From a virus: DNA of 29,196 nucleotides. Numbering within the stretch: position 1 is the stretch's first letter; each line of letters begins with the position of its first letter. A program made the position numbers and the translations under genes. Under the pieces are notes generated by a model. It was given only the letters and a program-made list of their open reading frames with translations, had not been told where the DNA came from and ran no database searches. The DNA is taken from the IMG/VR virus record IMGVR_UViG_3300009431_000737, positions 1 through 29,196 of that record. The stretch is one strand, 5' to 3'. Positions 20,694 to 29,196 of this stretch are shown here, piece after piece.

Positions 20694-20990
20694 ATGCCCC
20701 GTCTTGCAGATACCCCCTACAGCGCCACGCTCTGCGACGAGCGTCACCAGCGCATCACAGAGGATACCGCCGAAATCAAGACGACCTTGGGGAATCTGCG
20801 GGACGATGTCCAGGCGCTGACGACAGCGCTCTCCGGCGCGGCCGCGTGGAAGCGCATCCTCCCATGGATCGTGGCGGCGCTCCTCGGCGGAGGTGGAGCC
20901 GTCGGCGGCTACCGCATCGCCGCTCCGCAGCCGCTCCAACAGCCCCAAACCTCCCCCGCCGCTTCCCCCGACGCCGGGCCGGCGCGATGA
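20694..20990 (+). CDS. XhlA-like holin-associated membrane protein
   Basis: 98 residues with AGGAGG ahead of the ATG. An N-terminal soluble coiled-coil part (RITEDTAEIKTTLGNLRDDVQ, residues 20-40) precedes one membrane helix at about residues 55-76 (ILPWIVAALLGGGGAVGGY) and a Pro/Gln-rich tail. This is the layout of haemolysin XhlA-like proteins that act with holins in lysis. There is no second short hydrophobic protein next to it, and no lysin follows directly: the next gene, overlapping by ATGA, is a glycosyltransferase. It could instead anchor the downstream enzymes at the membrane. Confidence 0.5.
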   Translation: MPRLADTPYSATLCDERHQRITEDTAEIKTTLGNLRDDVQALTTALSGAAAWKRILPWIVAALLGGGGAVGGYRIAAPQPLQQPQTSPAASPDAGPAR

Positions 20991-22447
20991 TCGTTGTCTC
21001 GTATGGCCGAGAGGGGCGCCCGATCTCCCGCATCGCCGAGCGCCTGGCCAGGGACATCGAATCCGGTCCGGCCGGTCGACCTGTGCGACTCGTCGCCGGC
21101 GACGAGCTCCCGGAGGCGCTCTCCCTCCTCCAGGGAGACGTCGCCGGCGTCGTCGCTCTCTGGTGGCGCGCTGCCGCCCCCGTTCTGCGGGACCTGGGCC
21201 CGGGCGTGCGCCTGATTGTTGCGGTCTACGATCACGAGTCCTGGGTGAGTCGTCCCGCCGAGTTCGAGCGCCTGGCGCAGCGGGCCGCCGTCGTGTTTGC
21301 CTGCAATCGCCGGCTCCTCAGCGAGGTACGAACCTCCCTGGAGCGGTCCAGGGTCGGTGTCCCAGTCCGGCTCCTGGAGGATGGCGTTGACACTGAGATG
21401 TTCTGTCCCGGCCCGGGCCCAGCCGCCCGGGAGTCCGGCCCGCTGCGTGTTGGATGGGCTGGAGATCCGTCTCTGGACAGGGTCAAGCGTACCCGTCTCC
21501 TGCGGTCAGCTGCCGGCGCCCTGGACGACATCGACCTGGTAGGGGTCTCCGGCCTGCCCCACGAGGAGATGCTGGACTGGTACCGCTCCCTGGATCTCTA
21601 CGTGTGTGCATCGAGTGCCGAGGGCACCCCGAACCCCATCCTCGAGGCGGCAGCGTGCGGAATCCCCTTCGTCTCGACCTCCGTGGGGGTGGTCCCGGAG
21701 ATCCACGACCAGACCGGCGGCCGCGCCGGATGGATAGTCGAGGGCAGGAACGAGCGTGAGGCGCTCGTTGACGGCCTGCGGGCTGCAATGGCTGCTGGAC
21801 GTCGAGGCCTGCGTCAGATGGGCCGCTTCGGGCGTGCTGCGATGGTTGAGACGTGGACGTGGGAAAATCGATTCTGCGGCGTCCTGGAGGCTCTCGGCGG
21901 ACATGTCCCGGCCGATCCCGGTTCTCCGCCGCCGGTAGTGGCCCCTGCTCCGCTGCCACCTCCTCTGCATGTCTCGGCTCCGGGGCCCCCGCGGGTCGTC
22001 GTGGTCTATGACCGTGACGGGTGGGCCTTCCACCGCATCGCCCTCCAGATCCAGCGTTATCTGTGCGACGACTACGAGATCGAAATCGTGGCCTACCCTG
22101 ACATCCCTCGGAGGGGACAGCTTTGGGTGCGCGGATTCGATGCCGTGATCAATCTCGCTTATTTCGGTGTCGGAGAGGTCTGCAATTCCATAGGCACTGC
22201 CTCTGGCGGTCCTCCGGTCATCACCTGCGTCTACGACCATTACCTCTGGGCAGGCCGGCATCGCGGTGCCCTGTCGCGTGCCGTAGATAACTCCGCCCTG
22301 GTGATGGCCGCAAATGCCGTCCTCAGGGACCAGGTCGCCAAGGCCTTCGGTGCCAGAGTGACGATTTGTTCGGTTGGCCCTCCTGTCGTCGCTCGCCGTC
22401 CGCGTGGACGCGGCCAGGGAACTCCTGGTCACAGAAAAGATGGATAA
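20987..22447 (+). CDS. GT4-like glycosyltransferase with an extra N-terminal GT-B half
   Basis: 486 residues from the ATG overlapping the preceding stop (ATGA). Residues 1-300 form a complete GT-B enzyme of the GT4 type: an N-terminal acceptor half with VYDHESW at 80-86, the linker LLEDGVDTEMF at 129-139, and a donor half with the EX7E pair Glu212/Glu220 in EGTPNPILE. A Pro-rich linker (about 310-335) leads to residues 336-468, which repeat the N-terminal half (VVVVYDRDGWAFHRIALQI, then VYDHYLW at 415-421) but have no donor half. The gene ends early, shortly before the next one. It likely transfers a nucleotide-activated sugar; donor and acceptor are unknown. Confidence 0.75.
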   Translation: MIVVSYGREGRPISRIAERLARDIESGPAGRPVRLVAGDELPEALSLLQGDVAGVVALWWRAAAPVLRDLGPGVRLIVAVYDHESWVSRPAEFERLAQRAAVVFACNRRLLSEVRTSLERSRVGVPVRLLEDGVDTEMFCPGPGPAARESGPLRVGWAGDPSLDRVKRTRLLRSAAGALDDIDLVGVSGLPHEEMLDWYRSLDLYVCASSAEGTPNPILEAAACGIPFVSTSVGVVPEIHDQTGGRAGWIVEGRNEREALVDGLRAAMAAGRRGLRQMGRFGRAAMVETWTWENRFCGVLEALGGHVPADPGSPPPVVAPAPLPPPLHVSAPGPPRVVVVYDRDGWAFHRIALQIQRYLCDDYEIEIVAYPDIPRRGQLWVRGFDAVINLAYFGVGEVCNSIGTASGGPPVITCVYDHYLWAGRHRGALSRAVDNSALVMAANAVLRDQVAKAFGARVTICSVGPPVVARRPRGRGQGTPGHRKDG

Positions 22448-23330
22448 GTACCGGGCCTGGTGGCTGGAGATGCGCCGGAAAAACGGCGAGGACCCCAGTG
22501 ACGAGGAGGCCGACCGCTTCGCTGTGCAGTACCGAGACTTCGCCCGGCGCGTCGTCAAGGACGGCTACAACCCCGACGACGAGAAGCCTATCAAGATCAT
22601 CATCCAGGCCGACGGCACGCTGGGCTGCAGCGACGGTAACCACCGGCTGTGCGCTTTGGCTGCGGCCGGCGTCGAATTCGTCCCGGTGACCCTGGGGTGG
22701 GTCTCGCCGACGTGGGCAAGGCTGTTGAGGGCGCTGGGGGGCCGGATCTACCAGCCCCACCCTCACCCCTCGTTCTACGGCTGGGTCTGCACGCGCCCCG
22801 ATTCGGCCGCCCGCTACACCGAGATCGGTCGGCGCCTTGTGGAGATGGGATGCAAGTCCGTCTTTGAGATCGGTCCGGCGGCCGGGGTTGGTGTGCAGGC
22901 GATGTCCCGGGCTGGTCTCGCTGTCTCCTGGATAGAGACGGACCCGGACTACGCTCGGCTCTGCAGATCCCTGTCCGTGGTAGGGCTGCCGTCGTCGCAA
23001 GTTGATGCCCTGGAGGAATGCTCGAGGGTCGACGCCGTAGTGGGCCTGGCCGTATGGCACCATGTGGCGACGTCTGTCCTTGCGTTGGCAGACGCAGCAG
23101 ACAGAATGGGTACAGCGAAGGTGCAGGTAGTCGAACTCCCATCGCCGGATGCGCCGAGGTGGCACAAGGCATACGAAGAGGAGGTTGGCACGCCGATCCG
23201 CGAACTCACGGCACATACCCTGGAGGTCATCCGATCGCCGATCACGGGGGCCGGGTATTATAACCGCTGTGAAGTCCTTCGCTCCGAGTCCTATGGCGGC
23301 CGAACCACCTGGATCTTGTGGCGCGACTGA
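22440..23330 (+). CDS. ParB-like domain fused to a SAM methyltransferase
   Basis: 296 residues from the ATG that overlaps the glycosyltransferase stop (ATGGATAA). GTG at 22404 or TTG at 22374 are alternatives, none with a good ribosome-binding site. Residues 50-85 (IKIIIQADGTLGCSDGNHRL, then ALAAAGVEFVPV) match the core of ParB/sulfiredoxin-fold domains, where DG.HR is the signature. Residues 138-260 carry a class I methyltransferase Rossmann fold: VFEIGPAAGVGVQAM as the SAM loop, IETDPD as the acidic end of strand 2, and VVGLAVWHHV. It probably methylates a sugar or small molecule within this cassette; the ParB-like part may bind or sense a substrate. Confidence 0.65.
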   Translation: MDKYRAWWLEMRRKNGEDPSDEEADRFAVQYRDFARRVVKDGYNPDDEKPIKIIIQADGTLGCSDGNHRLCALAAAGVEFVPVTLGWVSPTWARLLRALGGRIYQPHPHPSFYGWVCTRPDSAARYTEIGRRLVEMGCKSVFEIGPAAGVGVQAMSRAGLAVSWIETDPDYARLCRSLSVVGLPSSQVDALEECSRVDAVVGLAVWHHVATSVLALADAADRMGTAKVQVVELPSPDAPRWHKAYEEEVGTPIRELTAHTLEVIRSPITGAGYYNRCEVLRSESYGGRTTWILWRD

Positions 23331-24148
23331 TACCCACGATCGGCATCTGCGGGACATCGTTCTGCGGCTCAACCCTCGTCGGATTTGTCCTCGGTAGCCT
23401 GCCTGGTGTTGCGACGATCGGTGAGGATCACGCCATCATCAGGGGCAAGATCGACCACAGAACAGCCTGCTCGACCTGCCCCCCGGGGACGTGCCCTATC
23501 TGGACCCCAGCGGAGTGCGTTGCCCATGACTATGCGACAGGGTGGGAGCGGTTCGGCTCTCGCGTGGGTGTGCGCACCGTGGTGGCCTCCGACAAGGTGC
23601 CGAGCTTGTACCGTCCGTATTTGGAGGCCAGGCCGGGTAGAGACTTCCGCCCACTGGTCCTGTATAAGTCCCCTGGGGCGTTTGCTGCCTCAGACGCCAA
23701 GCACGGTGGCTTCACGTTGATGGAATCACTTGGGCGATGGGTGAGGGTCTACGAGCGGCTGTTCAAGCTCTGTGTGGAGTTTGGGCTCAACCCCGTCGGT
23801 GTTGATTTCCTCGCCTTCACGAAACACCCCCAAGCTCAGCTCGCCCGCATCTGCGGCCGCTTGGGGCTTCAGTTCGATGCGGCCGCGCTGGACTACTGGG
23901 AGCATGAGCACCATCAGGTGAGGGGGAACAAGGGCCCTCATCTCAATATCTGGGGGCTGCAGCACCCCGGAACGAAGGCCTACATGGAGAGGTACGGGGA
24001 AAAGGCCGAGCCCTACCTGGAGAACTTCCGCCAGTCCATCAGGCCTCTCGGTGGACCATTGCCGTACACGCCGGCGGAGCTGATAGCCATCGAGCAGGAC
24101 AGGAGCGTGCAACGAGTCCTGCGGACGCTGGACGAGATCAGCCGGTAA
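23318..24148 (+). CDS. PAPS-dependent sulfotransferase family protein
   Basis: 276 residues from a GTG start overlapping the previous gene by 13 bases. Residues 9-36 form the phosphosulfate-binding loop seen in this family, CGTSFCGSTL followed by a helix and GVATIGE. A Cys cluster CSTCPPGTCPIW (51-62) and the HHQVRGN element at 198-204 are also typical of bacterial sulfotransferases. The second PAPS contact is probably KSPGAFAAS at 117-125. Such enzymes move sulfate from PAPS onto a hydroxyl of a carbohydrate, lipid or protein. Coupled to a glycosyltransferase and a methyltransferase, a sulfated glycan is the likely product. Tailed phages rarely carry these, so this is notable. Confidence 0.75.
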   Translation: MARLIPTIGICGTSFCGSTLVGFVLGSLPGVATIGEDHAIIRGKIDHRTACSTCPPGTCPIWTPAECVAHDYATGWERFGSRVGVRTVVASDKVPSLYRPYLEARPGRDFRPLVLYKSPGAFAASDAKHGGFTLMESLGRWVRVYERLFKLCVEFGLNPVGVDFLAFTKHPQAQLARICGRLGLQFDAAALDYWEHEHHQVRGNKGPHLNIWGLQHPGTKAYMERYGEKAEPYLENFRQSIRPLGGPLPYTPAELIAIEQDRSVQRVLRTLDEISR

Positions 24149-24359
24149 TACATGATTTGATGTAATAGGATCTGGTTCACTGAACCTGGCAAAAGTGCGG
24201 TGGCCGCGGCCACCCCTGTAGCCACACGTCGGCCACATCCAGCGACTCTCATTGACGTCAGTTTACACCATTGACACAGCGACGATCCCAGGCGGCGACG
24301 TGCACCAAGCGGGCACTGTGCGCTGATGACCTGCGATATCAAGCACTTAGAGATCTGAG
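24149..24359. other. Palindrome-rich left arm of the attachment region
   Basis: No gene is visible. Three dyads follow the sulfotransferase stop: TACAT/ATGTA (24149-24164), GGTTC-ACT-GAACC (24174-24186), and a perfect 16-bp palindrome (24199-24214). GGCCAC elements recur at 24209 and 24231. CATTGAC occurs twice, 19 bp apart (24250 and 24269). This spacing and repetition suit arm-type integrase, excisionase or IHF sites next to an attachment core. One or more dyads may also terminate the late transcript. Confidence 0.4.
24199..24214. repeat. Perfect 16-bp palindrome
   Basis: GGTGGCCGCGGCCACC is fully self-complementary. It lies in the gap between the sulfotransferase gene and the tRNA-derived core, so it is a candidate binding site for a dimeric protein or a cruciform/terminator element. 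Confidence 0.7.
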
Positions 24360-24401
24360 CGTCCCCAAGGGGATTTGAACCCCTGTCGCCGGCGTGAAAG
24401 C
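24360..24401 (-). other. Attachment core: 3' half of a tRNA-Glu gene
   Basis: Read on the minus strand this is the 3' half of tRNA-Glu(UUC): the anticodon loop CTTTCAC, the 3' anticodon stem GCCGG, a complete T arm (AGGGGTTCAAATCCCCT) and the 3' acceptor strand TGGGGAC with discriminator G. CCA is not encoded. Identity with a tRNA stops at the anticodon loop: the bases that should form the 5' stem do not pair. There is no 5' half, so this is not a functional tRNA. A tRNA 3' half ending at the anticodon loop is the standard form of an integrase attachment core. Confidence 0.8.
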
Positions 24402-24682
24402 CCCGCGCCGAGGGCTTGGTCTGCAGGATGCCCTCGGGGGGGACGATCGACGGGGATTACCTGTCCCATCGGTTCAAGCACCACGCCAGGCGGGTCGAGC
24501 TGGGCCGGCTGCGGCTCCACGACCTCCGCCACATCGCGGCGAGCCGCTTCCTGGCTGCCGGTGCGTCCCTCCCCGAGGTGGCCGCCGTCCTCGGCCACCG
24601 GACCCTGGTCATCGCCCGGCGCTACGCCCATCCCCAGTGGGATCGTCTCCGCGCCCTCGCTCAAGGGGCACATGACGGCTGA
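24398..24682 (+). pseudogene. int: Truncated tyrosine integrase, C-terminal catalytic part only
   Basis: The open frame begins right at the end of the tRNA core and gives 94 residues equivalent to the last third of a phage integrase. It keeps the HxxR box (HDLRH, His41/Arg44 of the fragment), the GHRT box (His67), and the nucleophile in RRYAHP (Tyr76). The first catalytic Arg, the core-binding domain and the arm-binding domain are missing, and a TGA at 24395 inside the core closes the frame upstream. A TTG at 24416 could start a short product, but it could not recombine alone. The residues left are well kept, so the loss looks recent or the fragment is half of a gene split by integration. Confidence 0.8.
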
Positions 24683-24740: not shown

Positions 24741-25037
24741 ATGACGATCCGATGTCTTGCGTTGATGGTCGCGCTGCTATGTGCCTGCGAAGACCAGGGC
24801 GTGGTCCTGAGTGGGGAAGGGGAGAGCTGCACCAGGACGGCGGACTGCGAGGCTGGACTGGTCTGCATCGACCTGGTCTGCGAGGCTAAGGAGGTCGAGA
24901 GCGACGTCGTCGAACCGTACTGCCCCCCCGGAGTGACCCAGATTTGCATGTGCGATGCTCACCGGTATGCGACCGGTACCCAGACATGCGACATGTCCGG
25001 GGAGTTCTGGTCGCCCTGCGATTGCGGCTTTGAGTAG
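24741..25037 (+). CDS. Cys-rich secreted lipoprotein
   Basis: 98 residues with AGAGGAGGTG before the ATG. The hydrophobic start ends in a lipobox-like L-C-A-C with Cys16 as the likely lipid site. The mature part holds about ten Cys in two patterns: GESCTRTADCEAGLVC, then CPPGVTQICMC and GTQTC...FWSPCDC. These disulfide-type patterns are frequent in surface lipoproteins of Myxococcota and relatives, so this could be a host-derived or lysogenic-conversion gene next to the attachment site. The codons for the GTQTC-FW part are within a 43-bp repeat found inverted at 26503-26545. Confidence 0.65.
   Translation: MTIRCLALMVALLCACEDQGVVLSGEGESCTRTADCEAGLVCIDLVCEAKEVESDVVEPYCPPGVTQICMCDAHRYATGTQTCDMSGEFWSPCDCGFE
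24968..25010 (+). repeat. 43-bp perfect inverted repeat, left copy
   Basis: These 43 bases match the reverse complement of 26503-26545 without a mismatch. Here they encode part of the Cys-rich lipoprotein (A-T-G-T-Q-T-C-D-M-S-G-E-F-W), which is a natural continuation of its repeat pattern, so this is probably the original copy. Confidence 0.9.
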
Positions 25038-25592: not shown

Positions 25593-25624
25593 GAGCGCCC
25601 CGGGGTTGCAGCCCCGAGGCGCTC
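25593..25624 (+). terminator. Strong terminator-like hairpin
   Basis: GAGCGCC-C-CGGGG (25593-25605) pairs with CCCCG-A-GGCGCTC (25612-25624) around a six-base loop with a single internal mismatch. It begins 12 bases after the stop of the ribbon-helix-helix gene. It lacks a T-run but is the most stable hairpin in this region and probably isolates that gene. Confidence 0.6.
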
Positions 25625-25682
25625 TGATAAGCTGCTGGTGTAGCAACCCCACTCGGGTGACAAGTTACACCAGGGGCCGGGA

Positions 25683-25709
25683 GATGTCAATAGATGTCAA
25701 CCGATGTCA
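25683..25709. promoter_or_regulatory. Three GATGTCA repeats, one helical turn apart
   Basis: GATGTCA starts at 25683, 25693 and 25703, exactly ten bases apart, so the same face of the DNA is presented each time. The repeats lie over the start codon of the excisionase-like gene. Cooperative binding by that protein, as with Xis or AlpA proteins, would be one reading. The repeats could also affect translation, because each contains an ATG. Confidence 0.5.
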
Positions 25710-25936
25710 CTGGCGTAAACCAAACGCCCCCCGTCGAGCTCCCTGATCTGCTCACTCCTGGCGACCTCGCCGACCTCCTCCATGTCTCCAGGCAGTACCT
25801 GTACAGCCTGAGGTGTCGACCCGGGGCCGGGCCGTCCTTCATTCGGCTCCCCAGCCGCCGCCCGATCATCCGCTACAGACGTGAAGACGTCCTCGACTGG
25901 ATGACGCGGAACCGCTCCAGCGGGGGGGAGGCCTGA
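25694..25936 (+). CDS. Excisionase / AlpA-like winged HTH protein
   Basis: 80 residues. Residues 18-70 follow the helix-turn-helix 17 (MerR-like, AlpA/excisionase) pattern: LLTPGDLADLLHVSRQYLY as helix-turn-helix, then RLPSRRPIIRYRREDVLDWM as wing and closing helix. Such proteins bend DNA for excision or act as early regulators. It is about 1 kb from the integrase fragment, suiting an excisionase. The ATG lies inside a set of phased repeats, and a weak CGGGAG is about ten bases upstream. A downstream micro-ORF overlaps the stop. Confidence 0.7.
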   Translation: MSTDVTGVNQTPPVELPDLLTPGDLADLLHVSRQYLYSLRCRPGAGPSFIRLPSRRPIIRYRREDVLDWMTRNRSSGGEA

Positions 25937-26375: not shown

Positions 26376-26740
26376 GCCCCGGCAAGGAGCCACCGAAGAA
26401 GAACCCGGACGGTGACAGGAAGTCCGCTACGGTCTCGGCGGCCGAGGTCGCCTCGCCCGCGGATGGTCCCTGCGCAAAGGTCGATGTCGCCGCAGAGCTC
26501 CCCCAGAACTCCCCGGACATGTCGCATGTCTGGGTACCGGTCGCACCGGCTCTGCCGGTGACGATCGGTGACCTGCGGAGGGCCATCCGCGGGGCCCCGG
26601 ACGGCGCCACCCTCAGGGTGATGACCTCGGAGACGGGCCCGGGCGACGGGTACCCGGTCTACGAGACGGGCCGGATCACATGGGGCGGCATCGTAGCGCG
26701 GGTCATCCTGTCTACTGTGATCCCGGAGCCCCGGTCGTGA
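26372..26740 (+). CDS. Hypothetical protein carrying the inverted 43-bp repeat
   Basis: 122 residues from a GTG in a GTGA overlap with the lipoprotein stop. The first 45 residues are low-complexity, Lys/Asp/Pro/Ala-rich and probably disordered; the C-terminal half (LPVTIGDLRRAIRGAPDGATLRV...YETGRITWGG) looks folded. The 43-bp repeat (26503-26545) covers about residues 45-58, at the join of these two parts, and is read in the opposite strand sense to the lipoprotein copy. This suggests an inserted or converted segment in the linker. Function unknown. Confidence 0.5.
   Translation: MSPGKEPPKKNPDGDRKSATVSAAEVASPADGPCAKVDVAAELPQNSPDMSHVWVPVAPALPVTIGDLRRAIRGAPDGATLRVMTSETGPGDGYPVYETGRITWGGIVARVILSTVIPEPRS
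26503..26545 (-). repeat. 43-bp perfect inverted repeat, right copy
   Basis: The reverse complement equals 24968-25010 over all 43 bases; identity ends sharply on both sides. In this copy the + strand reads Q-N-S-P-D-M-S-H-V-W-V-P-V in the host gene, unrelated to the lipoprotein reading. Confidence 0.9.
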
Positions 26741-28742: not shown

Positions 28743-29196
28743 AGCGACTGGAGTCCTGCAGATGGTGGTTCAACGACTACAGAACATCCACCGTGCGTCG
28801 CCGGTGCTCATTGCCCGCCCGCGGCCTGTACATGGACATCCTCATGCTGCTGTACAGCTCCCCGAGGCCTGGCTACGCCTGCGACACTGTTGGTGGCCGC
28901 CTGGTCTATCTGAGCATCGACGAAATCATGGCCGACGTAGGAGCATCCGGTGAGCGAGATCTCTTCGATGAGCTGACGAAGTGGGGCGGGCTCGTGTGGG
29001 ATGAGGGCTGCGAGGGCTGGTACAACGCCAAGGCTGCCGAGGTGGGCGGAAAGGAGCTCAGGTTCAGGGAGGGCTGTGCGGACAGTGGCCGCCGCGGCGG
29101 CCTCCGGAGGGGCAAGGTCAAGTCAAGAGCACAAGCTGAACCTGAAGGGTCGCTTGAAGGGTCGCTTGAAGGGTCGCTTGAAGGGTCGCTTGAAGG
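28739..29196 (+). CDS. Phage replication protein (DUF1376-like), runs off the window
   Basis: 152 residues visible, incomplete at the right edge. The start overlaps the zinc-ribbon stop (ATGA). PARGLYMDILMLLYSSPRPGY and a following LSIDEIMADVG segment resemble the winged-helix replication-organiser proteins of the DUF1376 type, where RGLYMDLL is characteristic. After a basic part (RRGGLRRGKVKSRAQ), the frame enters E-G-S-L repeats encoded by 12-bp units. Such proteins recruit the helicase at the origin. Because the gene continues, its C-terminal domain cannot be judged. Confidence 0.6.
   Translation, partial: MKRLESCRWWFNDYRTSTVRRRCSLPARGLYMDILMLLYSSPRPGYACDTVGGRLVYLSIDEIMADVGASGERDLFDELTKWGGLVWDEGCEGWYNAKAAEVGGKELRFREGCADSGRRGGLRRGKVKSRAQAEPEGSLEGSLEGSLEGSLE
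29144..29196 (+). repeat. 12-bp direct repeats inside the replication gene (iteron-like)
   Basis: The unit GAAGGGTCGCTT repeats four times without a mismatch (29144, 29156, 29168, 29180), and a fifth is cut by the window end. In frame it encodes E-G-S-L repeats. Repeats at this place in an initiator-type gene resemble the iterons in lambda O that form the replication origin. Confidence 0.8.

Follow-up and report, generated by a model that had tools for sequence, protein, structure and literature searches.

Analysis of the 29,196-base window, which is the whole IMG/VR virus record IMGVR_UViG_3300009431_000737 and comes without a host genome, confirmed that the 3' half of a tRNA-Glu gene, serving as a phage attachment-site core, runs straight into the C-terminal coding part of a tyrosine integrase gene, as the original prediction had claimed. 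The locus looks like a normal attachment module whose integrase has been cut short, either by a deletion or by an assembly chimera, and not like a new split-integrase system. The features around the junction are the following:

24149..24359: non-coding stretch between the sulfotransferase-like gene and the core, the attP arm facing the late genes
24360..24400, minus strand: attachment-site core, the tRNA-Glu(UUC) 3' half, nt C32-G73, 41/41 against bacterial tRNA-Glu
24394..24400: presumed 7-bp overlap (strand-exchange) region GTGAAAG/CTTTCAC, corresponding to the anticodon loop and containing a TGA in the integrase frame
24401..24682, plus strand: C-terminal fragment of a phage tyrosine integrase, with HDLRH, LGH and the catalytic Tyr
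24401..24409, plus strand: possible weak pseudo-core site in int, CCCCGCGCC, a 6/9 match to the inverted half-site across the overlap

The minus strand of the core (CTTTCACGCCGGCGACAGGGGTTCAAATCCCCTTGGGGACG) is identical at 41/41 positions to tRNA-Glu(ttc) of genome G011, covering the entire 7-nt anticodon loop through the discriminator, and the identity ends at the anticodon-stem boundary. Since the runner-up match of this 41-mer within the window is 23/41, the core match is not due to chance. Anticodon-loop cores are among the subsites that islands have been described to use in tRNA genes (PMC4383910), and the extent of identity to a bacterial tRNA, the 3' half from the anticodon loop on, is that of an attP for such a gene. 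In the window, neither a second copy of the core nor an intact tRNA (ARAGORN) was found, and no convincing set of arm-type repeats flanks the core. The exact 41-base core occurs in one of 195 genomes from the phylum of genome G001 (a 'Deltaproteobacteria' MAG). Among the IMG/VR contigs, the same core turned up in one further record, IMGVR_UViG_3300014656_000039, as a 38-nt match; unlike the window, this contig carries an ordinary attP with an intact 355-aa integrase upstream of the core and belongs to an unrelated AT-rich phage. A whole tRNA or tRNA-like RNA across the junction was also considered, given the good fold of minus strand 24355-24450 (z=-3.3) and a GTCCCC acceptor-like segment, and was rejected: ARAGORN reported none, the Rfam tRNA score was 16 bits against a gathering threshold of 29, the D-arm is non-canonical, and the sequence is accounted for by integrase coding.

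Beside the core, where an attP would be accompanied by a complete integrase gene, the window holds only the C-terminal 94 aa. This open frame (24398-24682, frame +2) matches Pfam PF00589 with E=4e-10 over profile positions 110-169 of 172, and its homology to the family is clear. HDLRH, LGH and the RRY tyrosine are kept, while the first Arg and the Lys region of the active-site series R...K...HxxR...H/W...Y are absent, together with the whole N-terminal two thirds of the protein (roughly 250-300 codons). A profile of 120 related full-length integrases aligns from fragment residue 2 (24401) on, and as the first dozen residues are weakly conserved, integrase coding begins at the end of tRNA identity or a few codons off. 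The original prediction had let the integrase frame start at the very base where tRNA identity stops, which agrees with the profile alignment, whereas the frame formally opens after the TGA at 24395-24397, inside the core. The earliest possible starts are TTG 24416 and ATG 24428, with no convincing ribosome-binding site. When 143 N-terminal regions were used as queries, no credible integrase N-terminus appeared elsewhere in the window (scattered hits, E above 0.1); a matching N-terminal fragment, which the original prediction had expected elsewhere if the integrase were split, is thus absent from the record, and the claims that the integrase boxes are present with nothing upstream and that a whole enzyme cannot be made from this locus are confirmed. 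Judged from its sequence, the phage as assembled cannot make a working integrase. The fragment itself carries no frameshift and has lost no catalytic residue, suggesting that the truncation is either recent or unreal.

Comparison with relatives of the integrase, collected as loci from integrase scans of viral contigs and bacterial genomes, revealed how such modules are usually built. An antisense T-arm motif outside an intact tRNA and 5' of the homologous codon was present in 24 full-length relatives. After one locus (L040) with the motif inside its gene was left out, 23 relatives, both phages and bacterial loci, carried the 3' fragment of a tRNA, in antisense, immediately 5' of an intact int; a number of the loci nearly duplicate one another, so they do not amount to 23 independent cases. 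Nearly all 23 motifs start at the CCA-like end and lose tRNA identity near the anticodon loop, and several of the loci are phage contigs with phage genes flanking the core on both sides. The distance from the T-arm to the homologous codon is 809-1160 bp in the 23 relatives (median 1065 over all 24 hits) versus 27 bp in the window, and a T-arm or tRNA motif at the homologous codon was seen in 0/155 relatives. Temperate-phage attP sites with an anticodon-loop core 5' of int (L006, L028, L045 and L047) share with the window the core type, the orientation, the core-int order and the integrase family; they differ in that the window is without the arm and the N-terminal part of int and has tRNA-Glu as its target. 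The order and orientation in the relatives, combined with the 27 bp here, indicate that the window contains the usual core-then-integrase module from which about 0.8-1.1 kb is missing, the gap having one of its ends at the crossover edge of the core. Two MAG contigs (L110, Acidithiobacillus sp.; L111, Proteobacteria bacterium) carry an identical stand-alone 95-aa integrase C-terminal relic with differing upstream flanks, which suggests a mobile or repeatedly truncated unit; these were dismissed as a parallel to the window, being relics without a tRNA core.

The reading that we tentatively prefer, as the most plausible of several, is that the window shows the attP of one temperate phage, targeting the tRNA-Glu anticodon loop, in which about 0.8-1.1 kb was lost and the core became fused to mid-int. 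A deletion of about 1 kb between the core and mid-int is the explanation with the best support from the relatives, and it is missing among the options of the original prediction. In its normal form, the module would consist of an antisense tRNA 3'-half core, then a short arm, then a complete int of about 350-450 codons; the arm, the promoter and the N-terminal two thirds of int would have been lost here. The position of the breakpoint exactly at the strand-exchange edge suggests a tyrosine-recombinase event, in which the core may have exchanged strands with a weak pseudo-core inside int, located either on the same phage molecule, giving a deletion, or in the int gene of a co-resident relative. 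The int-side flank lends this weak support with its 6/9 match to the inverted half-site, a level that about 4% of window 9-mers also reach. Beyond what the core, the fragment, the missing part and the layout of the relatives display directly, we infer that the junction is real and that an integrase made it. The outcome would be a dead 94-aa remnant and a phage that needs a helper integrase to integrate. An integrase-less phage in excised order should not easily be expected unless it is lytic, helped or in tandem. The undeleted parent has not been seen, and searches of viral contigs with the terminase, major head protein, Dam and sulfotransferase genes returned no close relative of the phage; its terminase was likewise absent from 193 genomes of the phylum of genome G001.

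The overall gene layout bears on whether the two sides of the junction belong together. The main components are as follows, the tail and methyltransferase-like assignments being based on gene order and sequence reading:

left 24 kb: late-gene module with terminase large subunit, major head protein, tail genes, XhlA-like protein and cargo
20990-24148: cargo cassette that follows the tail genes and precedes attP, comprising a glycosyltransferase (PF13692/PF00534), a methyltransferase-like protein and a protein with a weak match to sulfotransferases (PF13469)
23318-24148: sulfotransferase-like gene
right 4.8 kb: right module with the integrase fragment, a small lipoprotein-like gene, a small DNA-binding-like gene, an HTH_17/excisionase-like gene, a Dam methyltransferase and an endolysin-like protein, the latter containing a peptidoglycan-binding domain
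25694..25936, plus strand: HTH_17/excisionase-like DNA-binding protein

The left and right gene sets are complementary and their codon usage is alike (RSCU r=0.93), which fits a single temperate phage in virion order with attP between the late and early genes; this is supportive of one phage and not proof, as two phages sharing a host could look alike. These features also bear on the view that the fusion arose by deletion or decay without the integrase, either through illegitimate recombination or because an old integrase remnant at tRNA-Glu was joined by accretion, so that the left phage and the right element would be distinct members of a tandem. Integrase C-terminal relics do occur among the relatives (the 95-aa relic of L110 and L111), and 125 tandem arrays at single tRNA genes have been documented (PMC4383910). 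We nevertheless consider this view unlikely, because it does not predict an exact breakpoint, the gene sets resemble one phage, and the fragment is undecayed. Tandem elements at one tRNA, an option raised by the original prediction, are possible but not needed: a tandem alone leaves the truncated integrase unexplained, and left and right genes complement each other as they would within a single phage. Two elements would each bring a core and an integrase of their own; one core is seen in the contig, which is incomplete.

Several repeats were observed in the right part of the window. An exact 43-bp inverted repeat (24968-25010 and 26503-26545, arms 1,492 bp apart) has one arm in the small cysteine-rich lipoprotein-like gene and the other in an unrelated small gene; each arm contains the perfect dyad GACATG-CGA-CATGTC, which a dyad search located nowhere else, and no copies of the 43-bp repeat were found in other viral contigs. 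It may be an artefact of assembly, or it could mark the borders of a segment capable of inversion. Between a small gene and the HTH_17 gene lies a near-perfect, terminator-like palindrome of 16+16 bp (25593-25624, GAGCGCCCCGGGGTTG/CAGCCCCGAGGCGCTC), and just upstream of and into the HTH_17 gene at 25694 there are three head-to-tail 10-bp direct repeats (25682-25711; AGATGTCAAT, AGATGTCAAC and CGATGTCACT), which are possible excisionase or operator sites. At the contig end, a 12-bp tandem repeat, TGAAGGGTCGCT, occupies 29143-29190 and probably stopped the assembly.

A chimera of assembly or amplification, to which the false contig join among the options of the original prediction belongs, would account for the locus differently: the int of the phage would be intact, and the join between the core and mid-int would be confined to the contig or to a chimeric molecule. 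The undecayed state of the integrase remnant speaks for this explanation, as do the 43-bp inverted repeat as a second oddity in the region and a contig end that lies in a tandem repeat, with no terminal repeat in the 29,196-base record. It is less easily reconciled with the junction itself, where no shared sequence that could have caused the join is visible, and with a breakpoint exactly at the core crossover edge, which random chimerism would not be expected to produce. On balance, we regard a chimera as rather doubtful and yet as a serious competitor.

The original prediction had also proposed an integrase split by integration, as in SSV-type archaeal viruses. SSV-type integrases carry attP within their own gene, are split upon integration, and have been described as exclusively archaeal (PMC8371274). 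In bacteria, an attP inside int is known for the Myxococcus phage Mx8 (PMC6070905, PMC4701971); our analysis placed its antisense tRNA core within the open int frame, downstream of the catalytic domain. If the integrase gene of the window likewise spanned attP, the contig would be a product in which int(C) sits beside a host half-site. Such an origin would explain the exact boundary without any accident; as in SSV-type integrases, the integrase C-terminal part abuts a tRNA half-site, and as in Mx8 (PMC6070905), a bacterial temperate phage, the tRNA core is antisense to int. However, the presumed overlap contains an in-frame TGA (24395-24397), 3 bp from the junction, so that attP does not lie within an open integrase frame, and neither int(N) nor recognisable host DNA is found across the core, where tailed-phage late genes are located instead. 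The left side would need to be another prophage. In Mx8, the core follows the catalytic domain and the phage carries a full-length int, whereas the junction here precedes HxLRH; attP also lies 5' of int in the 23 relatives, and the archaeal restriction of self-splitting integrases weighs further against an SSV-type origin. An integrase gene spanning attP, whether SSV-type 'suicidal' or Mx8-type, is therefore very improbable, and the SSV-type proposal was not borne out. Even less credence is given to a bacterial int that spans attP upstream of HxLRH, is split on integration and now leaves int(C) bordering a resident prophage. Rescuing this reading requires that the left side be resident-prophage DNA and that the core of the phage itself differ at the TGA base, which are two extra assumptions against the layout of the relatives.

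Taken together, off-target strand exchange or another deletion is inferred to be the best reading of the locus, with a chimera as its live rival. General views would be altered by none of these readings except the unlikely one of a split integrase, because self-splitting integrases are described as confined to archaea. A real junction would represent a natural attP/int fusion, in which off-target integrase recombination or a deletion disarmed a temperate phage. In the case of a chimera, the locus would serve as a warning against reading split integrases from single metagenome contigs.
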